In this document: positions 4,155 to 28,747 of the stretch, one piece after another | How the letters are laid out: the number at the start of each line of letters is the position of its first letter | Position numbering within the stretch: the first letter of the stretch is position 1 | Position numbers and translations under genes: made by a program | Notes under the pieces: generated by a model | Database searches by the model: none | Told to the model about the DNA's origin: nothing | Seen by the model: only the letters and a program-made list of their open reading frames with translations | IMG/VR virus record: IMGVR_UViG_3300008267_000227 | Location: 1 to 30,835 of that record | DNA length: 30,835 nt | Reading direction: 5' to 3' (one strand) | Origin: a virus

Positions 4155-5202
4155 TTCAGCTTCAACAAATAATAAAGGGGCATTTTCTATATCAATCAAC
4201 CCCCCTGAAACTAATATGCAGGTACTTCTTACAATAAGTGCTCCTGGGTATGAACCCATAACTATTAATCCTAGAAAAGGCAATGGAGATTTTAAAGAAA
4301 ATTTAGGAGTAATATATTTAACTTCTAAAGTTAAAGGTTTAGAAGAAGAAAAAATTAAAGTTTCGAGAATTACTAAAGAACAAATTAATTCTTTAAATGC
4401 TAGTAAAAAAGATTTAAAATACTATGCCCAAGAAAGATTAAATAAGCAAATTGATAATTTAAAATTTACTATAATACCTATGGTATTAAATATGCTTACC
4501 CAATTTGGATTAAGCAAAACAACAGAACTAGCCCAAAAAGCTGCAGCTGAAATAGCTGAACAATTACTATCAGATACAGAATGCCCCAGTGAAGCTGATT
4601 TATTAGCTATCGTTAAAAAAAAGAATTCTTTGGTAAAACAATTAAATACTATTTTAAACGTAATAAATTCAACTACAACTGTTTTAGGTATAACCTCAAT
4701 AACAATCAATACTACTAAAACAGCTCTCACAGCTGCAGAATCTATCCCATCAATATATAACCCAACCCCACCAGGAGTTATAAAGAAATTAGATAAAACC
4801 CTTAACACATTAAATGCTACTAACTCTGCTTTATCTTCTATTTTAACCTTATTAAGTCAAACTTTAAAACAAGTTATAGATTTATTAAATCTACTTGACC
4901 TTTCAATAGGTAAATGTGCTCAATCTTCTAATATTACTATGGAAGCTATCCCCCAAGAATTAATAAACCTAACCCAACAACAATCCCAACAACAATCCCC
5001 AGTAGTTACTAATATAAATGGGTTTGAAATGGGGGTTGAGACTGAACCTACACTTAATGAGTTAAAACGTAAAAGAGCTATAGCTAGAAACAAACAAGGA
5101 ATAATAATGTTAAAAGGAGAATGGTCTTATAGTTCTATAGATCAAATTTTGATAGATGAATTAGTATTTTATATTCAACAAAATAATTTAAAAGCAGACT
5201 AA
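4147..5202 (+). CDS. predicted baseplate-region protein: beta-sandwich half plus helical bundle
   Basis: This 351-residue protein begins with NNKGAFSISINPP and VLLTISAPGYEPITINP, the second half of a carboxypeptidase regulatory-like domain, whose first half lies in the preceding gene. From about 75 to 265 it is helical, with long hydrophobic-heptad stretches (for example NSALSSILTLLSQTLKQVID), an isolated Cys pair (Cys-Pro near 140, Lys-Cys-Ala near 260) and a Gln-rich linker (TQQQSQQQSP). A basic tail LNELKRKRAIARNKQG leads to the C terminus. No signal peptide is visible. The helical core could be coiled coil or membrane-active; I do not recognise the family. The ATG at 4147 overlaps the previous stop by 8 nt. 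The neighbours argue for a baseplate component. Confidence 0.6.
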   Translation: MANSASTNNKGAFSISINPPETNMQVLLTISAPGYEPITINPRKGNGDFKENLGVIYLTSKVKGLEEEKIKVSRITKEQINSLNASKKDLKYYAQERLNKQIDNLKFTIIPMVLNMLTQFGLSKTTELAQKAAAEIAEQLLSDTECPSEADLLAIVKKKNSLVKQLNTILNVINSTTTVLGITSITINTTKTALTAAESIPSIYNPTPPGVIKKLDKTLNTLNATNSALSSILTLLSQTLKQVIDLLNLLDLSIGKCAQSSNITMEAIPQELINLTQQQSQQQSPVVTNINGFEMGVETEPTLNELKRKRAIARNKQGIIMLKGEWSYSSIDQILIDELVFYIQQNNLKAD

Positions 5203-5207
5203 TTAAA

Positions 5208-5215
5208 TATTTATA
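5208..5215 (+). promoter_or_regulatory. TATTTATA motif, candidate late promoter
   Basis: An exact TATTTATA, in the context AATTAAATATTTATAAACAT, ends only 5 nt before the ATG at 5221. If it is a -10-type late box, transcription would begin at or next to the start codon, giving a leaderless or nearly leaderless message. A similar context (AATTAAATATTTTAATG) precedes the gene at 24482. Confidence 0.4.
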
Positions 5216-5220
5216 AACAT

Positions 5221-5556
5221 ATGAAAAGTACAGATTTTAAAAAAATTATTAAAGAAGCCGTAAGAGAAGCAATTCAAGAAGAATTGAAGGACATTTTATT
5301 AGAAGCAGTAAAATCACCTAAACAAGTAGTTAGAGAATCATACACTCCACCTGCTCGAACACCAGAACCATCATTTACTCAACCTACAATGGACTTAAGA
5401 GCAAAATATGCTGACGTGCTAGGAGAAACTGCTTTAAGCTTCACTACAAATGATTTAAATAAATTTAACCCAGCAGGAATTACAGACCCAGTAAACGGGA
5501 GTTTACCTAGTGGAGAGATAGGAATGGATCAGATTATGAATTTAATGAGTAAATAA
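5221..5556 (+). CDS. tagged small protein upstream of gp25
   Basis: This 111-residue protein starts with an amphipathic basic/acidic helix, MKSTDFKKIIKEAVREAIQE. The same kind of N terminus begins several unrelated proteins later in the window and contains IxE sites of the type cut by T4-like prohead proteases. A Pro-rich, probably disordered linker (about 40-57, with PPARTPEPSFTQP) follows, then a C-terminal region with DLRAKYADVLGETAL and DLNKFNPAGITDPV. There is no cysteine or membrane segment. The stop overlaps the gp25 start (TAATG). Family unknown; a structural or internal protein is inferred from location and tag. Confidence 0.65.
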   Translation: MKSTDFKKIIKEAVREAIQEELKDILLEAVKSPKQVVRESYTPPARTPEPSFTQPTMDLRAKYADVLGETALSFTTNDLNKFNPAGITDPVNGSLPSGEIGMDQIMNLMSK

Positions 5557-5969
5557 TGCCTTTTAACCCACAATATATAGATGTTGCTAATTTAAATCCA
5601 AATGTAGGGTTAGGGATTAGTATACCTTTTAATGGGCCTAATTTATTTACTTCTACTTATGTAACTCAAGAAGCAGTAAAAAATAATCTTATAAATTATT
5701 TTCTTACCAACCCTGGAGAAATCCCAAGTAATCCAACATTTGGTGGAGGGCTTAGGCAATTTATTTTTGAGCAAATTTCACAGCCTTCTTTTGATAATAT
5801 TAAAGCCCATATGCAAAATAAACTATCTACTGTTTTCCCTATGGTAAAAATTACACAGCTAGATATTCTTTCAAATCCTAACAGTGAAAATTCTATTATT
5901 ATAGATTTAAAATATAATTTAATAAATACTAATTCTACGGGTTCACTAACATTTAATTTTAACTCATGA
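5556..5969 (+). CDS. 25: baseplate wedge protein gp25 (GPW/gp25 family)
   Basis: The 137-residue product has the length and hallmark of GPW/gp25-family wedge proteins, which initiate or anchor the contractile sheath on the baseplate. Visible features are an N-terminal VGLGISIPF, a helix leading into NYFLTNPGEIPSNPTFGGGL (residues about 47-66), QFIFEQI, and the beta-rich C terminus ITQLDILSN...IIIDLKYNLI. The TNPGE...PxFGGGL block is the most conserved part of the family. It overlaps its neighbours on both sides (TAATG upstream, ATGA into gp6), matching the conserved gp25-gp6 partnership in contractile tails. Confidence 0.92.
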   Translation: MPFNPQYIDVANLNPNVGLGISIPFNGPNLFTSTYVTQEAVKNNLINYFLTNPGEIPSNPTFGGGLRQFIFEQISQPSFDNIKAHMQNKLSTVFPMVKITQLDILSNPNSENSIIIDLKYNLINTNSTGSLTFNFNS

Positions 5970-7810
5970 CTCCAACTAATAGAGACATAAAATATATAAA
6001 CCGCGATTTCTCTGAATTTAGAGCTCGATTGATTGAGTATGCTCAAACATACTTTCCAAATACATATAATGATTTTTCTCCTACATCTCCTGGGATGATG
6101 TTTATGGAACAAGCATCATACGTTGGAGATGTTTTAAGCTTCTATTTAGATAACCAATTTCAAGAAACATTTATCCAATACGCCCAACAAACAAATAACA
6201 TATTTGAATTGGCATATATGTTTGGATACAAACCCAAAACCACAGGAGTTGCCCAAACTACTGTAACCATATACCAACAACTTCCTTCTAAACTCGTAGG
6301 CTCAGAATATGTTCCTGATTATGACTATGCTCTTACTTTAGGGGAAAATTCAACAATAGCTTCTCAAAATGGTTCTACTTTTTTAATTCAAGATAAAGTA
6401 GACTTTTCTCTTTCAAGTTCTCAAGACCCAACAGAAGTAACTATTTACCAAATTGCAGGTAATGTCCCTCAATATTTTTTATTAAGAAAAACTAGAAAAG
6501 CTATTTCTGCTAATATAGCAACAGCTACTTTTAATTTTACCACCCCACAACAATTTGCTACTGTAAATATCCAAAATAATAATATAATTAAAATTTTAGA
6601 TATCACAGACTCAGATAATAATATATGGTATGAAGTAGATCATTTAGGACAAGAAATGGTATTAGATTCTATTAAAAATACTAATATAAATAATCCTAAT
6701 AAAACTGATGATGTTCCTTATTTACTAAGACTAAAAAAAGCAGCTAGAAGATTTGCTACTAGATTTACATCCCTTACTAACCTCCAACTCCAATTTGGCT
6801 CAGGAACACCAGATACTATAGATGAAGAAATTACTCCTAATCCTAATAATGTTGGGATAGGATTACCATTTATTAAAGATAAATTAACAACAGCATATTC
6901 TCCTTTAAATTTTCTTTATACTAACACTTATGGAATTTCTCCATCAAATACTACTTTAACAGTTAGATATTTAATAGGTGGAGGAGTTAACTCAAATGTA
7001 TTTGCTCAAGAATTAAGTATTTTAAGTAAAACTAATGCTAAATTCCAAAACCTTAATATAAATCCTACTACAGCAAATTACATATTTGATTCATTAACTG
7101 GAATAAATGAACAAGCAGCTACTGGAGGAAAGGGAGGAGATACTTTAGAAGAAATTAGACAAAACACTTTAGCTCTAATTGCATCTCAAAAAAGATCAGT
7201 TACAGCAGATGATTATCTAATTAGAGCTTTAAGTATGCCTTCTGATTATGGTTCTATATCTAAAATATTTGTTGATAAACCTAAGTTAACTGATCAACAA
7301 GTTTCTACTTTAGATACTTTGAATATGTATGTTTTAGCTCAAAATAATCTAGGACAATTAGATTACGCTACTGAAACATTAAAAAGTAATTTAAGAACTT
7401 ATCTTTCCCAATATAGAATGATAGGAGATAGTATAGAAATTAGAGATGCTTTTATTATCAATATAGGAATAGACTTTGAGATTATAGTATTACCTGAATA
7501 TAATAATAGTGAGGTTTTAATTTCATGTATTACTTCATTACAAGATTATTTTAAATTATCTAATTGGCAAATTAATCAACCAATAATGCTAAAGGATCTT
7601 TATATTAGATTAGATAAAATTAAAGGAGTCCAAACAGTTAAAAACGTCATTATTACTAATAAGACTGGAGCCAATATAGGATATTCCCAATACTCATACG
7701 ACATATCTGCAGCCACACAAAACCAAGTAATATATCCTTCATTAGATCCAAGTGTATTTGAAGTAAGATACCCAAATGCTGATATAAAGGGTAGAGTGGT
7801 TCCTTTGTAA
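5966..7810 (+). CDS. 6: baseplate wedge protein gp6 (baseplate J-like)
   Basis: This 614-residue protein matches gp6 of T4-like phages, the wedge component that forms the inner ring of the baseplate. The first 100 residues hold the conserved block DIKYINRDFSEFRARLIEYA, SPGMMFMEQASYVGDVLSFY and ELAYMFGYKPKTTGVAQ. A C-terminal baseplate_J-like region contains GGDTLEEIRQNTLALIASQ, then RSVTADDYLIRALSMPSDYG and a beta/alpha tail (VLPEYNNSEVLISCITSLQD). The length is close to T4 gp6 (660). It starts 4 nt within gp25. The 25-nt gap after it holds another TATTTATA motif, so the following genes may form a new transcript. Confidence 0.92.
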   Translation: MTPTNRDIKYINRDFSEFRARLIEYAQTYFPNTYNDFSPTSPGMMFMEQASYVGDVLSFYLDNQFQETFIQYAQQTNNIFELAYMFGYKPKTTGVAQTTVTIYQQLPSKLVGSEYVPDYDYALTLGENSTIASQNGSTFLIQDKVDFSLSSSQDPTEVTIYQIAGNVPQYFLLRKTRKAISANIATATFNFTTPQQFATVNIQNNNIIKILDITDSDNNIWYEVDHLGQEMVLDSIKNTNINNPNKTDDVPYLLRLKKAARRFATRFTSLTNLQLQFGSGTPDTIDEEITPNPNNVGIGLPFIKDKLTTAYSPLNFLYTNTYGISPSNTTLTVRYLIGGGVNSNVFAQELSILSKTNAKFQNLNINPTTANYIFDSLTGINEQAATGGKGGDTLEEIRQNTLALIASQKRSVTADDYLIRALSMPSDYGSISKIFVDKPKLTDQQVSTLDTLNMYVLAQNNLGQLDYATETLKSNLRTYLSQYRMIGDSIEIRDAFIINIGIDFEIIVLPEYNNSEVLISCITSLQDYFKLSNWQINQPIMLKDLYIRLDKIKGVQTVKNVIITNKTGANIGYSQYSYDISAATQNQVIYPSLDPSVFEVRYPNADIKGRVVPL

Positions 7811-9403: not shown

Positions 9404-12400
9404 TGGCTATAACAATAACTCCAACAGATATTTCTTCACTCCAACCAGAGCAGTATGGTACTGGAGAATTTTTAGTCTCTGTATTAGAAGGAGAAATACC
9501 GTCTTCCCAATTAGTTTCTTCAAGTTACATCGAATACTTTGTATATGACCCTAATAAAAATCTAGTACAGAGTAATTTAAATTTTACTAATTATTCCATT
9601 GCAAACAATGGTCAAACGCCTATAACGGATAGTGTTTCTTCCATTGAGATTAATCTTGAAGAACAAGTTATAAATAGTGAATTATATAGTGGAGAATATA
9701 TACTATACTTTAATTTCCTTAATCAACAAGTAGGATCCCCTACCCAACAACTCAATATATCAGAAATATCTTCTGATAGAACAGAATTAAGACTAAAATC
9801 AGTTTTTGGGAGTGTTGAAGAAGCCTCTAATTTTATAAATGAAAGAGAAAATAGTAATTATTTTATTCCTTTTTATTTAAATTTTGGGGATAACCAACTA
9901 ATATTAGGGGTAAATTTAGCTCTAGATAATTTAGATCCTTCTAATCCTTCTTTATTAGTAAAATTAAATAATCCTCTCCCTATAAGTTTTAATTTAAATT
10001 CAACTTTATGGGTTGTAACTCAATTTTCTCAACCTTTAGCATATAATGCTGAAATCGAAAATGATGGGGAAATTATAGTAGTAGATAATACTATAAAACT
10101 TAGTCCTCCTAATTTTAATCTTCCCATTCAAGATCAAATTAATAATTCAACTGTTAATTTATCTTATAATGACTTAATTACTACTCAACTTACTAGCTCA
10201 TTTAATCAAATAAGTAGTTTATTAGAAGAAAAAGAAATAGACATAAATATAGATTATACTAATTTTTATAATTTTACACATTTTAGTTCTGTTAAAACTA
10301 GACTTGAAAATTTTTATTATAAAGCTAGTTTAATAGAACAATATTCTTCTTCAATTGCTGTTTTAAATAATACTACAAATTCACCTACAAATATTAGTAG
10401 TAGTGTTTCTACATATGAAGCCAAAATAAATAATATTATAACCAATTTTGATGGATATGATTATTATTTATATTACTCTAGTGGCTCTTGGGCTTGGCCT
10501 AAAACAAATTCTCAACCCCCTTATAACCTCAATACAACAGGTAGTACTGCAGTTTTAACTTGGCTAGGTAGTGATGACCCTGCCTCTTTATATTACGGGG
10601 GAATAATATTATCCGCATCCATATTTGACCAAGAAAACCCAAATAACCTCTATTACGCCATACCAGAATACTTAAGAGATGACCCTGATAATGATCAGTA
10701 TAATCTTTTTATTAATATGATGGGGCAATTTTATGATAATATTTGGATTTATTACAAAGATGTTTCTGAAAAGTATAATGCCGATAACCGTTTAGAATAT
10801 GGTATATCAAAGGATATAGTTGCAGATGCAATACGTGATTTTGGAATTAAATTATATCAAAATAATTTTTCTAATGATGACTTATATACTGCATTTTTAG
10901 GATTAACTCCAAGTGGATCCTTATTCCCATTCCCTAACATAACAGGTTCTTTACCAACCCCTTCAGGATTTGAATATGTTGACATACTAATTTCAGCTTC
11001 TAATGATTATTTACCGTTAGATGATGTAAATAAATCGCTATATAAACGCATTTATCATAACTTGCCATACCTGCTTAAATCTAAAGGTACAATGGCTGGG
11101 TTACGCGCCCTTATTACTTCATATGGTATTCCTGATACTATTTTAAGAATTAATGAATATGGAGGAAAAGATAAAGTAAATTACAATGATTGGGATTACT
11201 GGCAAAATGAATTCAATTATGCTTTTTGTACTACTGGAAGTAATTTTATTTCATCTTCTTGGGGGTTAAATCCTTTATGGAATGCTCCTAATGATGTTCC
11301 TTCAACTTTAATGTTTAGATTTAAAACTGAAGGATTACCTACTACAAATATCCCATACTCTCAAAGCTTATGGTATGGAGATGGTGGATGTGCTATTACA
11401 CTAACATATAATGGAACAGGTTATACTAGTGGTTCTTATCAAGGGTCTATAATTGATCCTTATTACCAATACGCTACATTAGCATTTTATCCTGATGTTA
11501 CTAACTCTACTACAAGTGCTAGTATATATTTACCTTTCTTTGATGGAGATTGGTGGTCTGTTATGTTAACCAGAAGTGGAAGTAATTTTTCCCTTTATAG
11601 CCAAGATAAATACTACCAAGGAGGAGACAATGACACCCAATTAGGATTCCAAGAATCATCATCAATCACTTTTTCAGATACTAATTGGACTAACTCTACT
11701 ACTAGTTATTTCCCAGTAAGTTTTTCCCTCAACGTAATAGGAGGAGGATATAATATAGGATTTTATGACGTAATGTTATACGATTCAGCCACTGGAACTA
11801 CAGCATCATATGACCCATTCGCAGGCTGCTACCAAGAAATAAGATATTACAACTCAGTTATAAGTGAAAGTATATTTACTGATTATACTATGAATCCTTA
11901 TTCAACTGAAGGAAATACATTAAATGAATCCCCTAACCAATTAGCTTTTAGAGCCACAGTAGCAGGTGAATTATACCGTGATAATATTTCTGTACATCCT
12001 AAAGTAACTGGGTCTTGGGTTACTACTAGTTCATTTATAAATGATAGTACTTTTTATTACGACTCAACCCCTGAATTTTTCCCTAATACCGAATATTTCT
12101 TTTTTGACCAACCAATAATAGGAATCAAAAACAGAGTCAGTGATAAAATCAGAATAGAAAATAACCCAATGCCTGAGGGCGATGTATTATCCCCATTCAA
12201 ATCACTAGCTCAAAATTCAGCAATATCTCAAAGTTATACCCCAAATAATAATTATCTTGAAATTGCTTTTTCACCTCAGAATGAAATAAATGACGACATT
12301 ACAGACCAATTAGGATACTTTAATATAGGAGAATTTATAGGTGACCCAAGATTTAGATCATCTTCTGCTTTGACATATCCTGAATTGGATAAATTACGAA

Positions 12401-15400
12401 ATTCATATTTTGAAAAATATACAAAGAATTATAATTTAGTTGACTTTATTAGATTAATTAAATTTTTTGATAATTCTTTATTTAAAATGATCCAAGACTT
12501 TGTACCTGCACGTACAAGCCTAGCTTCAGGAATTGTTATAAAACAACATATCCTTGAAAGAAATAGATACCCTCAACCACAAGTTAATAATCGTTCTACT
12601 ATAGCATTTTATACTACTGGTTCTGGAAGTACTGCTCAAAATAACAACCCTTTAACTTTCCAAAGTATTGTTGTTTCTGGAACATTATTACCACAATGGA
12701 ATGATTATAAACCTAGCACTATATATAAATTTAGTGGAGGAACAGGAGGTACATTTGAACAATTCAACAGCACAACTACTTCCCCTTCAGGATCATTAGG
12801 AACAGGCCCTGATAATATCTTTAATCTTACTCAAAGCTGGTTTGAAACTACTGAATACCTTTCAGGATCAATTGTAACCCTACATGATACTCAAGATGAA
12901 TTTTATGATGGTGAATTTAGTGGATCATATATAATAATTACTACTCAAAGTTTAAACCAACCATACCCAATAAATAATCTATCTTCATCATATAGACCAG
13001 TGTATTACTACGGAGGCTTACTAAGTGAAGCAAATATATTCCAAAGTAATTTTTTAAACGCTAACACATCACCTTATGCCGGTGAAATTTTATTTGATAT
13101 AGGTAAAACTACTGGAGGATTTTTAAGTTTTGATAAATGGGATTACGTAAAAATTGCAAAAATTGATTGTAATGGTAATGATAATACTACTCCTTTAGGT
13201 AATATTAATACTTTATTGATTGAAATTCCTCTTGCGGGGATTGCTAATTTTTGGATAAAATATTCACTTACTGTACTTAATGAATACTCTAACTATTACC
13301 TGTACAAAATTAATAGTGCTATATTAGACCAATACAACACCCCCATAATATATGCTTCTTCATTGTACCCTAACCAAGTATTTAACTACACAGTATCTTC
13401 TTCAGTAACTGCTTCTTACAACGTTGGAAATAGTTCCCCTAAAACTATTATAAATTGGAACTCAACCCTAGCAGGAACTAATTTACCACATTATGGAACC
13501 CCATATTTCAATACCTCATCAGGGATATTAACTTTTGAAAATACCCCTAACACTAGACTATTTATTACAGCTTCTATTGGTATTTTAGGAACTGGCTTCC
13601 CTGGATCTTCTTACCCTATATCACTAATCCAGAATAGAAATAATATTGAAACAACATTAGCAAGCCAATTTTATAGTACTCTTGGCACTACTAATGCAAT
13701 ATTAACTGCATCATTTTACCCTATACAAAATGACCAATACTATATCAAATTAGAAAAGCCATTATCTGGAGGAAGTATAAATATAACTTCAGCCCAATTA
13801 TTACTTACTCAAAGCAGAGCAGTTAGTGCTTCAAATTGTGAACCTATAATCTTAGAACCTTACATTACATCCCCTAATTTTTACAATAGTGATGATAATG
13901 CATTGTTAAATAATACTGAAGACGAAAGAAAAAGTTCTACATACATGGATGTTGATTATACTCCGGGCATATTAGTACCAACTAATTTTGGGTTAATTAT
14001 TAGTGGGAGTGCTCTTAAAGCAGCCGTTCAAGATTCAAATTATACTGCTAAAAAACATATTACTCCGCGATATTTAGGGTCTAAATCCACTTCTCAAAAG
14101 TTAAATGTTTGGACTCCTGGAGATGAAGGGACATATGGTAAAACACCTACTGTAGAAAGTTTAAAAGTAATGGTAGCTTATGGAGATATGACTGGAGGGT
14201 GGTCCCCTGAAAGGATGAATTCTTCCTGTTTTGCTGTTAAATACTTAATCAATGCTCAAGGAGACGTAATAATCCCTAATGTCACTGAAAATTCTTTAGA
14301 AATACTAAAAGGAACATTTGAATCCAGAGAAAGGTTTAAAATACAATCTACAACCCCAGGATTTGGTGACCCAGATTGGCAATACAGAACAATATTTAGA
14401 GCAGGAACAACTATTAACCCTATCATATACACCCAAATAGGCCATTCACCAGCTGCGTGGACTTCATCTATAAACTTTTTACCTACAGATGGTTATATAA
14501 CTACGGCTAGTATCAATGATTATACTGCTAAAGTTAATCAAACTAATGGATCTTACATCCTCCCTGTATCACCTACATATACTACATTTAACCTCACTGA
14601 TCCAATATACCTAGGAGACCCAGCATTATGGTCTACAGATAGATACATTATATCATCTAGCCTAATATCTGATAATGTTACTTTATTTTTTAATTATAAG
14701 TACAATGCTAAAGCCTTCTTAACAACCAATGTCAATGTAGCTAATGTAAATTTTAGAATATACACTGACATACAAATTATTAAAAAAAGGGGAACTCTTA
14801 ATACCATAATATACTCAGACGTTATTGCATCTAATGTTTTAAGTACTAGTAATAACTCATCATATACAGTTCCTCAACAAAATATTTCTCTTACTTTATT
14901 ACCTGTAGATTTAGAGCCTAACGATGAAATTTTCTTACAAACTCGACAAAGCTATGTCTCTTACACATATTATAATGGTAATATTCCTTTTAATGTATTT
15001 TATGATTACTATATTTATAATACAAGATTAAATGTAACCCAAACACCCCTTGCAACTTCTTTAGTTGCAACATCTTCTATACCTAACAGTATATGGGGTT
15101 ATCCTGATCCTATTAATTATAAAAATGTGATAACCTGCTCTAGTTATGTACTTAACCAATTATATGGAACTAACGTAAAACAACAAGACATCTCAGGTTC
15201 TGGATTTAACCCTATAACTTACCCTTGGTCAATAGAATACGGTGATGAATTCAGATTTGAAGGAAGTGAAGATGAAACTTACCAAGTAGGACAAATATAT
15301 GGCCCTGGAGAAGGATCAGGATCAAGGTTATTTGAATCATCATCAATAGAAGTCCACTTCAACAGAGAACTACCAGTATCAGCATCTGCATCATATTTTA

Positions 15401-18244: not shown

Positions 18245-18700
18245 ATGTCAAAATGGTTTTACAATGGTGGATGGGTAGAGTCTATCCAAAAATTCCCTGA
18301 GGGTACATATGGTTTTGTTTATATTACTACTCATATGCCTTCTGGTAAATCTTATATAGGTAAAAAAGCTTTATATCATAATGTAAAGAAAAAACTTACT
18401 AAAAAAGAATTAGCTGAACAAACTGGTAGAGGAAGAAAAGCTACAACTCAAACTATACAAAAAGAATCTGATTGGAAAACGTATTATGGTTCTGCTAAAC
18501 CTATAGTTGAACTTATAAAACAAGGAAAGCAAGATGATTTTTCACGTAAAATTTTATATTTAGCCCCCAATAAAAAGCTTTTAACATATTATGAATGTAA
18601 GTATTTATTTAAGTTTGGAGTTTTAGAAAACCCTGAAGAATGGATAAATGATAACATTTTAGGTAAATTTTTTACAAAAGATTTTGTTGAGACCAAATAA
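18245..18700 (+). CDS. free-standing GIY-YIG-type nuclease
   Basis: The 151-residue protein contains GFVYI (23-27) and, ten residues on, YIGKK (37-41), the two strands of the GIY-YIG nuclease core. A basic segment (KKKLTKKELAEQTGRGRK) and SDWKTYYGS (75-83) follow. A helix with YYECKYLFKFGV contributes a glutamate (about 117) in the position of the family's metal-binding residue. No extra DNA-recognition domain is present, so it resembles the compact phage versions often labelled Seg-like or homing-type endonucleases. It may be a mobile endonuclease inserted between structural and replication genes, or a domesticated recombination enzyme. Flanks show no visible intron or target-site repeat. 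Confidence 0.78.
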   Translation: MSKWFYNGGWVESIQKFPEGTYGFVYITTHMPSGKSYIGKKALYHNVKKKLTKKELAEQTGRGRKATTQTIQKESDWKTYYGSAKPIVELIKQGKQDDFSRKILYLAPNKKLLTYYECKYLFKFGVLENPEEWINDNILGKFFTKDFVETK

Positions 18701-18718: not shown

Positions 18719-19648
18719 ATGGTAAATGAACTTCTAGTCAATTTGGTTAACTCTATCCTAGGCGCTGGTAAACGCACCGCTCGAGGTAATCAAGCATATT
18801 CTTGCCCTTTTTGCCATCATCATAAGCCTAAATTAGAAATTAATTTTACTGAGAATAAACAAGGTAATAACCCTTGGCAGTGTTGGGTTTGTGGAAAACG
18901 GGGAAAAACTATAAAAAGTTTATTCAAACAAATTCAAGTAGATGCTTCTTATTTCCAAGAATTAGGTAAATTAGTCAAAAATACCTCGATTGATTACACG
19001 GATAACAATGTATCTAATCTTCCTACTTTACCTAAAGAATTTAAAACTTTTATAAATAATAAAGATATTATAGCTAGACATGCTTTAGCTTACCTTAAAA
19101 AACGAAAAATTACCAACCAAGACATTCTCAAATATAACATTGGCTATTGCGACTCAGGACCTTTTGCAAATATGATTATTATTCCTTCATATGATAATGT
19201 GGGTAAACTAAACTATTTTACTGCAAGATCATTTGAAAAAGATCCTTTTACTAAATATCGAAACCCTGAGACATCACGTGATATAATACCTTTTGAATTA
19301 TTTGTTAATTGGGATTTACCTATTATATTATGTGAAGGCCCATTTGATGCTATTGCTATAAAAAGAAATGCAATACCTTTATTTGGTAAAAACATTCAAT
19401 CTAATTTAATGAAAAAATTAGTTGAATCTAAAGTACAAAAAATATACATTGCATTAGATAATGATGCTATTAAACAAGCCCTTGGTTTTTGTGAACAACT
19501 TTTAGATATTGGGAAGGAAGTTTATTTAGTTGAACTCCAAGGAAAAGATCCTAGTGACATGGGGTTTGAAAATTTTACTAAGCTAATACAAAGGGTCCAA
19601 CCATTAACCCAATACAAATTAATGGATAAAAAATTATCTACAATATGA
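18719..19648 (+). CDS. 61: DNA primase, DnaG/gp61-like
   Basis: This 309-residue protein combines an N-terminal zinc finger (Cys29, Cys32 in SCPFCHHH; Cys55, Cys58 in CWVCGKRG) with a TOPRIM catalytic domain. The latter has ILCEGPFDAIAIK (Glu206, Asp210), YIALDNDA (Asp247, Asp249) and KDPSD (276-280). The order fits a phage primase that makes RNA primers at the replication fork with a gp41-type helicase. It is about as long as T4 gp61 (342). Between zinc finger and TOPRIM lie the helical linker ITNQDILKYNIGYCD and the RNA-polymerase-type segment NMIIIPSYDNVGKLNYFTAR. Its stop overlaps the next nuclease gene in an ATGA junction, suggesting joint expression. Confidence 0.88.
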   Translation: MVNELLVNLVNSILGAGKRTARGNQAYSCPFCHHHKPKLEINFTENKQGNNPWQCWVCGKRGKTIKSLFKQIQVDASYFQELGKLVKNTSIDYTDNNVSNLPTLPKEFKTFINNKDIIARHALAYLKKRKITNQDILKYNIGYCDSGPFANMIIIPSYDNVGKLNYFTARSFEKDPFTKYRNPETSRDIIPFELFVNWDLPIILCEGPFDAIAIKRNAIPLFGKNIQSNLMKKLVESKVQKIYIALDNDAIKQALGFCEQLLDIGKEVYLVELQGKDPSDMGFENFTKLIQRVQPLTQYKLMDKKLSTI

Positions 19649-20409
19649 TCATTAAAAAACAATACCAACGCATCCTTCAAATTTCAGAAGACGCTAAACA
19701 AATTACTTTACCTGACTCTCGTTACTATCGCCGTAATGGAGAATATTATCCATCAATAACTTATGTTTTGCAATATTACCCTAAAGGGAAATATTTTGAA
19801 GATTGGTTAAAACAAGTAGGGAATAATGCTGACCATATTGTTAAAAAAGCAGCTGAAGAAGGCACTCAAGTGCATGAAATGTGTGAAGCTTACCTAAATG
19901 GAGAAGAATTAAATTTCTTATCCCCTTCAGGTGATATAAAATACGATGTTAATATTTGGCAAATGTTTTTACGATTTGTTGAATTTTGGGAAACATTTAA
20001 CCCCACACTTGTTGAAACTGAAGTTCATTTATTTTCTGATGAATTAAAAGTAGCAGGTACTTGTGATTTAATAGTTGAAATAAACGATGAGTTATGGGTA
20101 TTAGATATTAAAACATCTAACAATTTACACACATCATATGACCTCCAAACTGCCGTTTATGGAAAATGTTACGAAGAATGCTTTGAAAAACAAATCGCTC
20201 GCCGTGGCATTTTATGGCTCAAATCAGCTAAACGAGGACCTAAAAAAGATAAAATGCAAGGTAAAGGATGGGAAGTAGTTGAATCATCCCGCAGTCATGA
20301 TGAAGATTTAAACCTGTTTAAAAACGTAAAAACATTATTTGATTTAGAAAACCCTAACCATTCTCCATCATTTACTGAATTTAGGACGAGTGTTAGAAGA
20401 GAGTCGTGA
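19645..20409 (+). CDS. RecB-type PD-(D/E)XK nuclease
   Basis: The 254-residue protein shows the full motif series of PD-(D/E)XK exonucleases of the RecB/Cas4-like type. These are EEGTQVHEMCEAYL (His77), ELKVAGTCDLIVEIN (Asp141), WVLDIKTSN (Asp154, Lys156) and YDLQTAVYGKCYEE (Gln168, Tyr172). There is no four-cysteine Fe-S cluster, so Cas4/AddB-type Fe-S binding is not supported. It overlaps the primase gene by 4 nt. A role in recombination, replication-intermediate processing or degradation of host DNA is plausible; it could functionally stand in for a phage recombination exonuclease. The nuclease fold call is firm; the substrate is unknown. Confidence 0.85.
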   Translation: MIIKKQYQRILQISEDAKQITLPDSRYYRRNGEYYPSITYVLQYYPKGKYFEDWLKQVGNNADHIVKKAAEEGTQVHEMCEAYLNGEELNFLSPSGDIKYDVNIWQMFLRFVEFWETFNPTLVETEVHLFSDELKVAGTCDLIVEINDELWVLDIKTSNNLHTSYDLQTAVYGKCYEECFEKQIARRGILWLKSAKRGPKKDKMQGKGWEVVESSRSHDEDLNLFKNVKTLFDLENPNHSPSFTEFRTSVRRES

Positions 20410-20860: not shown

Positions 20861-21433
20861 ATGAAGGATTCGATATTAAGAAAAGAGTTTCAAAAAAGAG
20901 ACGTAGAACGTCTTCGTAACCTTGTAAAAGGAAAATATGGTGATAAAACCACTATAGGGGTTGGGTATAATGGCCCATCTGAAGAAGAGCATCAAGAAGG
21001 AGATATATGGGAATCTAATGGTAAGACATGGACTATTAAAGATGGTATTAAAGAAAATATCACTAAATTAGATAAATTTAAAAAAATAGCTATTCCATTA
21101 TTTTGTCCTAAATGCAAACATGTAATGGATAAACAACTAGACTCATTCTACTTCAAAGCATATGGAGAATGTGTTGACTGTAGATCCATAACAGAAACCC
21201 AACTTAAAATCTCAGGAAAATGGGAAGAATATACTAACCAAACATTCAATGCTGAAATTGATCAACAAATAAACGAATACAAAAGTTATTTCGAAAGTGC
21301 CCTTTCAGATGGAGCTGAAGGATATGTTTCTGAAAATGGTGAGGTTCAAAAATGGGTCGGAGGGATTGATAAAAATAAAGCCAAAGAATCATTAGATGAA
21401 ATTGTTAAATATTTAAATTCGCTTAAAAAATAA
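20861..21433 (+). CDS. zinc-ribbon protein (190 aa)
   Basis: The product carries two CxxC knuckles, FCPKC (Cys82, Cys85) and ECVDC (Cys104, Cys107), spaced as a single zinc ribbon. The first 70 residues are conserved-looking: EFQKRDVERLRNLVKGKYGD, then GDIWESNGKTWTIKDGIKEN. The latter hints at a small beta domain. The C-terminal 60 residues are helical and acidic (IDQQINEYKSYFESAL). I associate this N-terminal/zinc-ribbon combination with T4-like environmental phages, without a function assigned. It could bind nucleic acid or act as a structural zinc protein. The stop overlaps the start of the membrane GAF-like gene (TAATG), suggesting a linked pair. Confidence 0.65.
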   Translation: MKDSILRKEFQKRDVERLRNLVKGKYGDKTTIGVGYNGPSEEEHQEGDIWESNGKTWTIKDGIKENITKLDKFKKIAIPLFCPKCKHVMDKQLDSFYFKAYGECVDCRSITETQLKISGKWEEYTNQTFNAEIDQQINEYKSYFESALSDGAEGYVSENGEVQKWVGGIDKNKAKESLDEIVKYLNSLKK

Positions 21434-22065
21434 TGGTAACTTTTAATTTAACTTACATTGCTGTTACAATAATTGTAGCTCTTATTACAGCAGTTATAGG
21501 CCCTATTATAGTTAATTGGGTTAAACTTAAAATGGAAAAACAAGATAAAAAAACACCAATGCGTGAAGCTCTTGAAACTTCTACTTTAATAGACGGACAA
21601 TTAGAAGCAATAATGGACGAATTGTATTGTGATAGAGTATGGCTAGCCCAATTCCACAATGGAGGACACTTTTACCCTACAGGAAAATCAATTCAAAAAT
21701 TCTCCTTTTTCTATGAAAAAACATCTCCAAACACACCCCCTATCCAACATACATTCCAAAACATACCTGTATCTTTATTCCCCAGAGTACTTTCTAAAAT
21801 ATACAATGATGATGAGATTTCAATAGAGGACGTTAGTGCAGTTGAAGATACTTTTGGTTTAGAATATTTAACAACCCAATTCGGTACAAAATCTATATGT
21901 ATGCTTGGTGTATATAGTTTAGATAACCATTTAATAGGTGTATTAGGTATATCTTATAAAGAACCACACCATATGATAAGAGATGAATGGTCTTTCATCA
22001 GACAAAAAGTAGGAGCGATAGGAACACTACTTTCTGAATATTTATACACAAACAATAAAAAATAA
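21433..22065 (+). CDS. membrane-anchored GAF-like protein
   Basis: This 210-residue protein has an N-terminal transmembrane helix (about 7-29: TYIAVTIIVALITAVIGPII) followed by basic VKLKMEKQDKK, so the rest is probably cytoplasmic. Residues about 60-205 look like a GAF-type small-molecule-binding fold. Visible elements are DRVWLAQFHNGGHFYPTGKS, FSFFYEKTSP, GTKSICMLGVYSLDNHLIGV, LGISYKE and a closing helix IRQKVGAIGTLLSEYL. No effector domain (kinase, cyclase, HTH) is attached. A phage membrane sensor could report host state, feed lysis timing, or interfere with host signalling; these are guesses. It overlaps the zinc-ribbon gene by 1 nt and is followed after 1 nt by the acidic protein gene. 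Confidence 0.65.
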   Translation: MVTFNLTYIAVTIIVALITAVIGPIIVNWVKLKMEKQDKKTPMREALETSTLIDGQLEAIMDELYCDRVWLAQFHNGGHFYPTGKSIQKFSFFYEKTSPNTPPIQHTFQNIPVSLFPRVLSKIYNDDEISIEDVSAVEDTFGLEYLTTQFGTKSICMLGVYSLDNHLIGVLGISYKEPHHMIRDEWSFIRQKVGAIGTLLSEYLYTNNKK

Positions 22066-22066
22066 A

Positions 22067-22690
22067 ATGGATAATTTTGACTTAAAAAAATTCTTAAAAG
22101 AAAGCAAAGCTCTTGAGAATTTAAATTCCACATTCAAAACACTTAATGAAAGTGAAACCCCAGAAGAGGGAAAAATGACTAAGGATAAAATGAAAGCAAA
22201 AATCAAAGAAATGATTGTTGCCGAATTAGAAGGGAAAGATAAAATAAAAGAAGAAACAGATACAGACTTAATGGATCCTGTTGAAGAAAATGGAGGTGAA
22301 GATTACGAATTAGAGGATAGAAAAATTAAATATGGAATAAATCCTGAAATTGAAGATGAAGATTATTCTGATTATTTCTTTGATATAAATGCACCTGAAG
22401 AAGATCTTGAAGAGGCTAAAAAGAAAAAAGAAGAAGAAGTAGAAGATGTTGAAGTAACAGATACAACTGAAGAAGTACCTGTTGAAGATACACCTGCTGA
22501 AGATCCAACTACTGATAGTGGTTTGGAAGATATAGCTGCTAATATGGAAGGTGCTGAAAGTGAATTAATGAAAAATTTAATGGATGCTCTTAAAATTGCT
22601 AAAGAGATGGGTAATGAAAAACTTGAAACGCAAGTTGGAAATACTCTTAAATTCTTTGTTAGTGAGTATATTGGTGGAGAAGAACAGTAA
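22067..22690 (+). CDS. acidic, low-complexity prohead-core-like protein
   Basis: This 207-residue, very acidic protein begins with the tag-like FDLKKFLKESKALENL and a second helix KMKAKIKEMIVAELEGKDKI. The middle (about 110-155) is Glu/Asp/Lys/Thr/Pro low complexity (KKKKEEEVEDVEV, VEDTPAEDPTTDS). A conserved-looking C-terminal helix pair follows: LMKNLMDALKIAKEMGNEKL, then TQVGNTLKFFVSEYIG. Acidic, highly charged proteins with cleavable N termini are typical of T4 prohead scaffolding and internal proteins (gp22, gp67, gp68). No sequence identity to these is claimed. Several LxE/IxE sites are present. The prohead-core role is inferred from composition, tag and neighbours. Confidence 0.55.
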   Translation: MDNFDLKKFLKESKALENLNSTFKTLNESETPEEGKMTKDKMKAKIKEMIVAELEGKDKIKEETDTDLMDPVEENGGEDYELEDRKIKYGINPEIEDEDYSDYFFDINAPEEDLEEAKKKKEEEVEDVEVTDTTEEVPVEDTPAEDPTTDSGLEDIAANMEGAESELMKNLMDALKIAKEMGNEKLETQVGNTLKFFVSEYIGGEEQ

Positions 22691-22719
22691 ACAATTAAAT
22701 CTATATAAAAATAAAATCT

Positions 22720-22890
22720 ATGAACACAACAGAAATTTTAAACGCAATTAAAGAACAATTAGCTATTATGGAATCTGAGCATGCTAAAACATCAAAAGCA
22801 GCTCGTGGACGTGCACGCAGTGCAGCTAATAACATTAAAAAACTTGCAGCTGAATTTAAAAAGACTTCAACTGCAGAAGACAAAGCTTAA
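22720..22890 (+). CDS. histone H1/Hc1-like small basic protein
   Basis: This 56-residue protein is encoded in the gap between the acidic protein and the EF-hand protein, where a shorter opposite-strand frame is only a shadow. The core KTSKAARGRARSAANNIKKL, then AAEFKKTS, closely resembles the (K/N)KAAGTRARKxxxxLKxLxxxxRK signature of Hc1-type bacterial histone H1 proteins found in Chlamydiae and Bacteroidota. The N-terminal helix TEILNAIKEQLAIMESEHAK fits the same two-helix plan. Length is typical for the family. It probably binds DNA, either to organise phage DNA within or near the prohead or to alter the host nucleoid. ATG follows an A-rich, SD-less leader. The family call is from motif memory. 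Confidence 0.72.
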   Translation: MNTTEILNAIKEQLAIMESEHAKTSKAARGRARSAANNIKKLAAEFKKTSTAEDKA

Positions 22891-22892
22891 GA

Positions 22893-23999
22893 ATGAAACT
22901 ACATGAGGCATTCTCATCAGAAGAATCTAAACAGATATATGCTAACTTTTTAGCAATCGTAAATGATCCTAAACGTAGGGATAGATTAGTTAGACTTCAT
23001 GGTGCGAATGCCGAAAATGTAGCTTATGGCACTGCTGTTAATCAAGTAAAAAAACAAGCAGCTAATAAAGTTGAAGAACCAACAACTGAAGAACCAATGG
23101 ATAAAGAAACTAAGTTAAAAGAAATGATTCAAGCGGCTTTATCTAAGCCATTGTCTGAGAAAAAAGGTAAAGATAGGGATGGGGATGGAGACATTGACCA
23201 ACAAGATTATTTAATAGCACGTGATGCTGCTATTAAAAAAGCTAAAGGTAAAGTAGACGAGGATATGGATTTAGGTCATGAAGATGATGAACCTCATATG
23301 CTTAAAGCAGATTTATATCGTATTGGAAAATATGCTATGGAACTTTATAAAATGGTTGATCAATTTGATAATGGACAAGAAGTTGATTTTCCACATTGGT
23401 GGCAATCAAAAATAGTTCAAGCTAAATCAATGTTAGTTGCTGCGAAACATTATCTTGACTTTGAATTAAAAGAACCTCAAATCGATGCTATGGTTGATGT
23501 TGCTTCTCAAGAAGGAGCAATTGATGAGAATAAAATAATTAAAGATATTGCTGAAGGAGTATTTGACAGAATCAAAGCCCAAGTTAAAGGAACTACTTCA
23601 GATATAGGACAACGCATTAAAAATGTAGGAGCCGCAATTAAAGGAAAACCTGAAGAATTCCAAAACCCAGCAGTAGCTTCAGGTATGTCTAAAATAAAAA
23701 GTAAAGCTAAAAATTTTGAGTCTGATGTTGAAAATATGCTAAACGACCTTAACATATTATTCCCAGAAGAAAAATTAGGAAAAACCCCTGAAATAAAAGA
23801 ATTAATAGATAGTTACAAACAACTACTTAATTCTGTATTAAAAGTAAACACTACATTAGCAGCTGGTAAACCAGTTAATGTTACTACTAGATCTCAAGCG
23901 TCTGCTCAAGCAGCACCACAATATACCCAAACAACTGCTCAAGCTACATCTGCAAAACCTAGAGATGAAAAAGGTAGATTTGTTTCAACTAAGGAATAA
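22893..23999 (+). CDS. modular core-like protein with EF-hand loop
   Basis: This 368-residue protein contains a perfect EF-hand/dockerin-type calcium loop, DRDGDGDIDQQD (94-105), followed by a helix (YLIARDAAIKKAKGK). A second module follows (about 135-190: HMLKADLYRIGKYAMELYKM, DFPHWWQSKIVQAKSMLVAA, KHYLDFE), a helical block that I recall recurring in environmental phage proteins. A helical region to about 310 and a Gln/Ala/Thr-rich tail (SQASAQAAPQYTQTTAQATS) end in basic KPRDEKGRFVSTKE. The N terminus MKLHEAFSSEE resembles capsid-targeting starts loosely. Charged, modular and Ala-rich, it fits an internal head or scaffold protein. Its stop overlaps the next start (TAATG). Confidence 0.58.
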   Translation: MKLHEAFSSEESKQIYANFLAIVNDPKRRDRLVRLHGANAENVAYGTAVNQVKKQAANKVEEPTTEEPMDKETKLKEMIQAALSKPLSEKKGKDRDGDGDIDQQDYLIARDAAIKKAKGKVDEDMDLGHEDDEPHMLKADLYRIGKYAMELYKMVDQFDNGQEVDFPHWWQSKIVQAKSMLVAAKHYLDFELKEPQIDAMVDVASQEGAIDENKIIKDIAEGVFDRIKAQVKGTTSDIGQRIKNVGAAIKGKPEEFQNPAVASGMSKIKSKAKNFESDVENMLNDLNILFPEEKLGKTPEIKELIDSYKQLLNSVLKVNTTLAAGKPVNVTTRSQASAQAAPQYTQTTAQATSAKPRDEKGRFVSTKE

Positions 24000-27346: not shown

Positions 27347-28213
27347 ATGGAACGATTAAAAAAACTTATTAAGGAAGTACTTTCTACTCCGCCTAAAGAA
27401 AAAGAAGGCTGTGATTGTGGATGTGGAGGATGTAGCGGAACACCTTCTAAAGGTATTACATTAAATGAAAGTTTAGCTCCCAAACAAATACTTTCTGAAA
27501 ATTTAAGATATCATTTAGATAATAAATTACCTATTACTGAAAATACCTTTAGGTATGGATCTGAGGCTTTTCTCAATCTATGGGCTGAAGCTAGATCATT
27601 ATATTTACGTGAAATTATTGATGTAAATAATGATGATAAAGAAATTTTAGAAGAAACTGATCTTGGAAATTACGGAATGTATGAAGGTATTAAAGTGCCT
27701 TTAGATTTACCATTAATAGAAGAAAATATTAGTCTTTCTGTTAGAGCTAATGAAATTCCTTTAATGAAAATTTTAGATAGAGCTCAAGAAAAAGGACATA
27801 ATAAATATCCATTTTATAATGAATTAGTTGCTGAACTAGGCCAAGAATATATAGACATGGATGAAATTAAAGATATACTAAGAGATTATGGAGTATATTT
27901 TGAATATGAAGATTTATTAGGTCTTAATGAAGCTAAAGAAAAAAAGAAAAATCCACCAATTGGAAAACCAAAACGTGGTGGGTCTAAAAAATTTTATGTT
28001 TACGTAAGAGATAAAGGCAAAATTAAAAAAGTATCTTTTGGACAAGTAGGAATGTCTGCTAAAATAAATGACCCAAAAGCACGCCAAGCATTTGCAGCAC
28101 GCCATGACTGCAAAAACAAAAAAGATAAAACCAAAGCATCTTATTGGAGCTGCCGCTTACCAAGATATGCTAAATTACTCGGATTAAAATCGTCCTTTTC
28201 AGGATTTTGGTGA
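27347..28213 (+). CDS. tagged protein with Cys cluster and conserved basic C-terminal module
   Basis: The N terminus of this 288-residue protein, MERLKKLIKEVLSTPPKEKE, is a copy of the recurring tag. A dense cysteine knuckle GCDCGCGGCSG follows (Cys22, 24, 26, 29), possibly a metal site. The middle (about 40-195) is helical and acidic. The last 90 residues form a basic module: GKPKRGGSKKFYVYVRDKGK, KKVSFGQVGMSAKINDPKAR, then ARHDCKNKKDKT and YWSCRLPRYAKLLGL (Cys255, Cys269). I recognise this end as a conserved module of environmental T4-like phages, without a known activity. It could bind nucleic acid. The stop overlaps the next start (TGATG). Confidence 0.6.
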   Translation: MERLKKLIKEVLSTPPKEKEGCDCGCGGCSGTPSKGITLNESLAPKQILSENLRYHLDNKLPITENTFRYGSEAFLNLWAEARSLYLREIIDVNNDDKEILEETDLGNYGMYEGIKVPLDLPLIEENISLSVRANEIPLMKILDRAQEKGHNKYPFYNELVAELGQEYIDMDEIKDILRDYGVYFEYEDLLGLNEAKEKKKNPPIGKPKRGGSKKFYVYVRDKGKIKKVSFGQVGMSAKINDPKARQAFAARHDCKNKKDKTKASYWSCRLPRYAKLLGLKSSFSGFW

Positions 28214-28380
28214 TGAATAGATTACAAAAAATAGTACAAGAAGTACTTAAAGAACGCCCTGGTTTATGGGCAAACATACATGCTAAACGTGAGCGTGGAG
28301 AAAAACCATCCCCAAAAGGATCTAAAGCATATAAGTCTGCGGTTAAAGCTGGTAAAGAAATTAATAAACAAAATGATTAA
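28213..28380 (+). CDS. small tagged basic protein (55 aa)
   Basis: The product has 55 residues, starting MNRLQKIVQEVLKE (tag-like, with VQE and LKE sites) followed by RPGLWANIHAKRERGEKPSP and KGSKAYKSAVKAGKEI. The GLWANIHAKRxRGEKP core is a recurring motif in T4-like phage proteins, where I recall it next to Pro/Lys-rich tails; function is unknown. It overlaps its upstream neighbour by 1 nt (TGATG) and the next gene by 8 nt. It is strongly basic, so nucleic-acid or prohead-core binding is possible. Confidence 0.62.
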   Translation: MNRLQKIVQEVLKERPGLWANIHAKRERGEKPSPKGSKAYKSAVKAGKEINKQND

Positions 28381-28747
28381 ATTAGTTAATGTATTAAAAG
28401 AACTAGTAACAGCAACAGAAATTATCTGTGATAAATGTGGTTGGAACTGGAAAATTAAAGATGGTGGAAATGACTTATACATATGCCATAAATGCAATCA
28501 TGACAACACCCCAAAACAACTAAAAGAATCAACCAAACCAGAAAAATCTCCAGCTTACATGTACTCACCTGTAGGGTTTGGTTGCCATGTTTGTAAATTC
28601 TATTATGTAGAAAATAAAAAGCATATGTGTGGTAATTCATATTATCAAAAACATATGGGAACTGCTGAACTAGTAGATAATGAAGGAAACCAAATTAAAG
28701 ATCCTTCAAAATGGTGTTCAAATTGGTTCTTACCTAAAGGAGAATGA
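28373..28747 (+). CDS. zinc-ribbon plus HiPIP-like cysteine protein
   Basis: From the ATG at 28373 the product has 124 residues; a longer upstream reading from 28280 would add 31 unrelated residues inside the previous gene and is rejected. It begins with a tag-like MIKLVNVLKELVTATE. A zinc ribbon follows (Cys19, Cys22 in ICDKCGWNW; Cys38, Cys41 in ICHKCNHDN). A second four-cysteine set follows: GCHVCKFYYVENKKHMCGN (Cys71, 74, 86) and DPSKWCSNWFLP (Cys115). The spacing and CxxCxFY...WCxxW pattern recall high-potential iron-sulfur proteins. Whether a 4Fe-4S cluster or zinc is bound is unknown. The stop overlaps the cupin-like gene by 4 nt. Confidence 0.65.
   Translation: MIKLVNVLKELVTATEIICDKCGWNWKIKDGGNDLYICHKCNHDNTPKQLKESTKPEKSPAYMYSPVGFGCHVCKFYYVENKKHMCGNSYYQKHMGTAELVDNEGNQIKDPSKWCSNWFLPKGE

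Follow-up and report, generated by a model that had tools for sequence, protein, structure and literature searches.

A conserved gene for a tail-less Hc1-family protein in a lineage of aquatic tailed phages

The virus record analyzed here over its whole length of 30,835 bases (the window) carries a real gene for a 56-residue protein, which is a secure though divergent member of the Hc1 domain family (PF07432) as judged by sequence. The gene occupies a fixed slot in a common aquatic phage lineage, is under purifying selection, and encodes the Hc1 domain from end to end with no C-terminal tail. With a probability of about one half, we propose that the product is a nucleoid-associated protein of old cellular origin, now borne by phages, that would act on DNA in the infected cell.

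Results

An Hc1 gene fills the gap between two larger genes

The open reading frame (ORF) starts with ATG, stops at 22888-22890, and encodes exactly 56 residues (MNTTEILNAIKEQLAIMESEHAKTSKAARGRARSAANNIKKLAAEFKKTSTAEDKA). It is the sole Hc1 match within the record, lying 29 nt after the preceding ORF and 2 nt before the following one (Table 1). The product is mildly basic, with 11 K+R versus 7 D+E and a pI of 9.8, so the description of a 56-residue basic protein in a gene gap, given by an earlier sequence-only reading, is confirmed. The net charge is modest (+2 to +4), which counts against our preferred explanation. A G-run resembling a Shine-Dalgarno sequence was looked for in the leader of the window copy and none was found. 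The T4-type late promoter TATAAATA is likewise absent upstream of the window copy, a further point against the preferred explanation; it occurs in 13 of 78 relatives and, the leader being AT-rich, is not persuasive as a promoter for Hc1.

Table 1. Coordinates of the Hc1 gene, its predicted parts, and its neighbors in the window
Feature	Position	Strand	Basis
Hc1-family (PF07432) gene, tail-less form, 56 aa	22720..22890	+	ORF, Pfam match, relatives, shuffle test
Leader, 29 nt, A/T-rich, ending AATAAAATCT before the ATG	22691..22719	+	Conserved in 78 relatives
Predicted helix 1 codons (residues 3-22), net acidic (family mean -3.7)	22726..22785	+	AlphaFold, charges
Predicted helix 2 codons (residues 26-55), net basic (family mean +5.7)	22795..22884	+	AlphaFold, charges
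Upstream neighbor, 207 aa, acidic, no family match	22067..22690	+	Orthologue in 73/80 viral loci
Downstream neighbor, 368 aa, no convincing family match	22893..23999	+	Orthologue in 77/80 viral loci

The product is a divergent member of the Hc1 family

The H1-like assignment had originally been made from the residues alone, with an HMM search against PF07432 suggested as a check. Scanned against 24,736 models, the window protein matched PF07432 with 22.2 bits (E 1.3e-4), 1.3 bits short of the curated Pfam cut-off of 23.5 bits; residues 7-55 align with positions 4-56 of the 57 in the model. Orthologues with 52-63% identity to the window protein reach 33-43 bits (up to 42.6, over positions 2-56), and 10 of 19 related contigs lie above the cut-off. 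Each of the 18 aligned viral relatives matches PF07432, the best with an E of 5.5e-11, and none matches another family convincingly. A profile built from 33 cellular homologues gave the window protein 43.9 bits, and 20,000 shuffles that preserved its composition reached no more than 14.7; with a profile from Bacteroidota homologues only, the corresponding values were 16.3 and 12.7. Across 30 proteins from phages and cells, residues R31, A32, R33, K40, K41, L42, K48, and S50 do not vary, and the basic pattern RAR......KKL.....K.S is common to both sets, which are 36-46% identical to each other. Membership in the family is secure because the Pfam matches of the relatives, the shuffle test, and the invariant residues all point to it, and the original assignment is upheld. 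PHROGs and NCBIfam yielded no family for this Hc1.

The gene is nearly universal in its lineage and under purifying selection

With the 56 residues as query, IMG/VR yielded 80 viral loci, and the gene order 21433, 22067, Hc1, 22893, 23999 (genes named by position) was found again in nearly all of them. Median identity across the loci is 88% for Hc1 versus 50% and 60% for its two neighbors, a comparison somewhat inflated for Hc1 by its use as bait. Hc1 is under purifying selection, with a median dN/dS of 0.24 relative to the window copy and 0.20 across all pairs. Because of the bait effect, a second search was run with the neighboring ORF 21433-22065. Hc1 lies downstream in 54 of the 61 loci with room for it and is missing in 7; it is therefore nearly universal in the lineage yet can be absent. 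Judged by the bait gene, the loci lacking it belong to the more remote relatives (57-60% identity), and a search through six of these contigs, one of them 160.9 kb long, turned up Hc1 at no other place. The existence of a sub-lineage without Hc1, including the 160.9-kb contig, means that the gene is not indispensable, which weighs against the preferred explanation. The Hc1-less relatives are L195-L198, L199, L201, and L202. In L199, the one inspected, the downstream gene (5147-5677) encodes a different protein of 176 aa with a lysine-rich C-terminus, which might replace Hc1.

The protein lacks a tail and is predicted to form a two-helix hairpin

Phage Hc1 copies are 56-57 aa long, and none of 77 exceeds 57 aa. 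The window protein ends where the Pfam Hc1 domain ends and has no C-terminal nucleic-acid-binding region, which again counts against the preferred explanation. For chlamydial Hc1, PMC3469542 reports the C-terminal region as the DNA-binding part and cites a 1996 paper for the dimerization part. Since the phage protein ends at the domain end and has a matching size, it corresponds to the reported dimerization part. DNA compaction is not simply transferable from Chlamydia because the C-terminal region is lacking, and the label "histone H1-like" does not stand for demonstrated DNA compaction.

With 30 aligned sequences, AlphaFold predicted a two-helix hairpin with a mean pLDDT of 96.9 (Table 1). 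The predicted helix 2 contains all the invariant residues, and its charge moment is directed away from the hydrophobic face (p = 0.025). A linker-histone fold was considered and rejected, as the model has neither strands nor a winged helix. No solved relative by sequence or fold is present in the PDB copy searched, another point against the preferred explanation: the family profile gave a chance hit only (E 1.4), and Foldseek with the model returned varied helical hairpins, none with E below 1 (no PDB match at E <= 0.001).

The neighbors are not recognizable prohead-core genes

The Hc1 gene had been placed between predicted prohead-core genes, and this placement is not borne out. Both neighbors were compared with Pfam and PHROG, and neither convincingly matched prohead-core proteins or any other known family. 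In six longer relatives, the genes for TerL, the prohead protease, and a T4 gp23-type capsid protein lie on the same strand beyond Hc1, at about 8-13, 15-20, and 17-22 kb, respectively. A T4-type prohead core or internal protein was also rejected as an identity for Hc1 itself, the core genes not being adjacent and the protein having no N-terminal extension as a capsid-targeting peptide. On the other side, the window encodes gp25-like (5556-5969) and gp6-like (5966-7810) baseplate wedge proteins, with primase and exonuclease genes at 18719-20409 between these and Hc1.

Several other features of this region were noted. Six ORFs with no assigned function, starting at 5221, 22067, 24482, 27347, 28207, and 29001, have similar N-termini (MKSTDFKKIIKEAV, MDNFDLKKFLKES, MKNEALKKIIKEEI, MERLKKLIKEVL, MNRLQKIVQEVLKE, and MQKLAGIITEN); these may be peptides for capsid targeting or for processing by a gp21-type protease. 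The protein of 22893-23999 contains an EF-hand-like calcium loop (DRDGDGDIDQQDY) and a C-terminal RDEKGRFV motif. An ORF with cysteine pairs at 28280-28744 overlaps 28207-28380; it may be mobile or duplicated, because its homologues in many relatives sit elsewhere, between the 20406 and 20861 genes. The top PHROG match of ORF 18245-18700 is "NAD synthetase" (E 3.9e-29), and homing-endonuclease families match it too (2e-10); the former name, also used in the record of Flavobacterium phage immuto, looks like an annotation error. In G002, the contig of L004, the gp23-type capsid match at 12249-13727 runs across two TAA codons, possibly reflecting an intron, an insertion, or an assembly error.

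Hc1 occurs in other phages and in cellular genomes

A tblastn search of phage records with the window protein itself returned nothing, and a more typical relative used as the query led to immuto, to a 635-kb uncultured phage (LR745206), and, with weak matches, to Lak phages. The immuto protein, 61% identical to this query, is gp196 (YP_010114487.1), a 57-aa product annotated as "hypothetical protein". Its gene (NC_055915.1 42260-42433; L102 15001-15174) directly follows GroES-GroEL, and about 60 of 80 related contigs have the same order, GroES-GroEL-Hc1-endolysin/holin. In LR745206, Hc1 comes after a RecA-like gene, as read by eye. In one contig filed as Deltaproteobacteria (L082, JAJFLM010000040.1), a phage-type Hc1 gene lies amid small ORFs of unknown function; this is probably a mis-binned phage contig.

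Immuto is the closest cultured relative found; it infects Flavobacterium and shares with the window the gp6-like baseplate wedge protein (46% identity), so the host of the window phage is probably in Bacteroidota. PF07432 is present, mostly in single copy, in 177 of 296 genomes sampled from the phylum of a Flavobacteriales metagenome-assembled genome (MAG). Together, these observations agree with the host lineage at which the sequence-only reading had hinted. The cellular Hc1 proteins examined, from Bacteroidota and Fidelibacterota, are about 55-67 aa long, and their genes lie in varied, unrelated settings; in one Flavobacteriales MAG (L083 10001-10162), reading by eye placed the gene within a ribosomal-protein/EF-Ts cluster, with rpsB on one side and tsf on the other.

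In a poorly resolved tree, the window falls in a supported all-phage group (20 rows, 95/89) beside a set formed by immuto and Flavobacteriales. At least three changes between phage and cell labels are forced on this tree, whose bacterial rows are a biased sample of best Pfam scorers or finds made with phage-derived motifs. With its few columns, the alignment does not single out an exact donor.

Discussion

Proposed function and its alternatives

In the explanation that we prefer, the protein is one of the short Hc1 proteins (56-60 aa), a family of nucleoid-associated proteins of the Bacteroidota type, and its gene would have been acquired from a cell in the distant past and inherited vertically since. 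The hydrophobic faces of the hairpins would join them into dimers or larger assemblies, leaving the outward basic face of helix 2, as modeled, to hold DNA and perhaps RNA too. These contacts would be made with the backbone, without sequence preference, and the protein would coat or bridge DNA in the infected cell, its most likely target being the replicating DNA of the phage before packaging. In three other phage settings the gene has different neighbors, and for this reason a stand-alone DNA protein fits better than a component of one machine.

The main rival is action directed at the host, whereby Hc1 would compact the host nucleoid, silence host genes, or poison the host Hc1 through mixed dimers. 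The frequency of Hc1 in the sampled phylum (177 of 296 genomes) favors it, as do two points on the chlamydial protein. HctA compacts the nucleoid of E. coli and slows its growth (PMC3469542), and the phage protein has roughly the size of the dimerization part of chlamydial Hc1 reported in the 1996 paper cited there. We consider host take-over unlikely, however, as the gene lies in a virion-gene region with no evident early-gene block and the phage proteins are far from their cellular counterparts in sequence (36-46% identity). Proteins in contest with a host protein frequently diverge, whereas this Hc1 is strongly conserved. Genomic position is also what speaks for a virion protein that would be packed with the genome, condense DNA inside the capsid, or be injected: Hc1 has its strand and region in common with the baseplate genes upstream and with the terminase, prohead protease, and gp23-type capsid genes that follow 8-22 kb downstream. 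Packaging into virions has also been proposed for moraphages (PMC12619734). Nevertheless, the immediate neighbors are not prohead-core genes, the N-terminus aligns with cellular homologues and leaves no extension for a T4-type capsid-targeting peptide, and in the immuto group the gene sits with GroEL and lysis genes. Virion packaging is possible but unsupported, and we rate it as quite improbable. Least probable is a protein that binds RNA and tunes translation, as might be suggested by the homologue between rpsB and tsf; the other cellular homologues are found in unrelated settings, and we know of no RNA role for the short Hc1 family, which makes this reading very unlikely.

Relation to known proteins

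The short Hc1 proteins of Bacteroidota and Fidelibacterota (Marinimicrobia) consist, like the phage protein, of the same domain end to end with the same invariant basic residues; the inter-helix loop of the phage proteins is 3-4 residues shorter than that of the Fidelibacterota proteins. Eukaryotic linker histone H1 has a winged-helix globular domain, in contrast to the predicted two-helix hairpin, and has only the name and a lysine/alanine-rich make-up in common with the window protein. Chlamydial Hc1/HctA has the Pfam Hc1 domain at its N-terminus but is about 125 aa long, with a C-terminal DNA-binding region that the window protein lacks. Phages of Candidatus Accumulibacter encode H-NS (PMC3097231), also a host-type nucleoid protein carried by phages, although of a family unrelated to Hc1.

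That PF07432 occurs in large phages is already known. In the literature searched, phage-encoded Hc1 has been reported once, in a 2025 survey that describes histone H1-like proteins in four complete genomes of moraphages (PMC12619734). The moraphages resemble the window lineage in being tailed and aquatic, with predicted Bacteroidota hosts and a protein of the same Pfam family whose function is not known. They are, however, a jumbo-phage group, whereas the largest contigs seen in the window lineage are about 160-174 kb, and what the present lineage adds to the four genomes is a conserved Hc1 slot in the virion-gene region. Immuto (vB_FspM_immuto) has both the Hc1 and the baseplate wedge protein in common with the window, but its Hc1 gene is located after GroES-GroEL and before the lysis genes, in contrast to the stretch from primase/exonuclease to terminase occupied by the window gene. 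New here are the constant location of the gene and its almost general occurrence in a common aquatic lineage, the tail-less architecture, the second Hc1 group that includes a cultured phage with the gene still annotated as "hypothetical", and the correction of the prohead-core claim.

The activity of the widespread tail-less Hc1 of Bacteroidota is not simply inferable from chlamydial Hc1. A broader and doubtful proposal is that large phages of Bacteroidota share a tail-less Hc1 chromatin protein that would assemble through its helix faces alone, on replicating phage DNA or in the capsid; if true, genome organization by such a hairpin would be a mode not yet described for a protein named after histones. 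The finding raises the question of a phage that brings its own chromatin protein, and of whose DNA that protein acts on. As immuto infects Flavobacterium sp. LMO8, this question is testable on a laboratory host.
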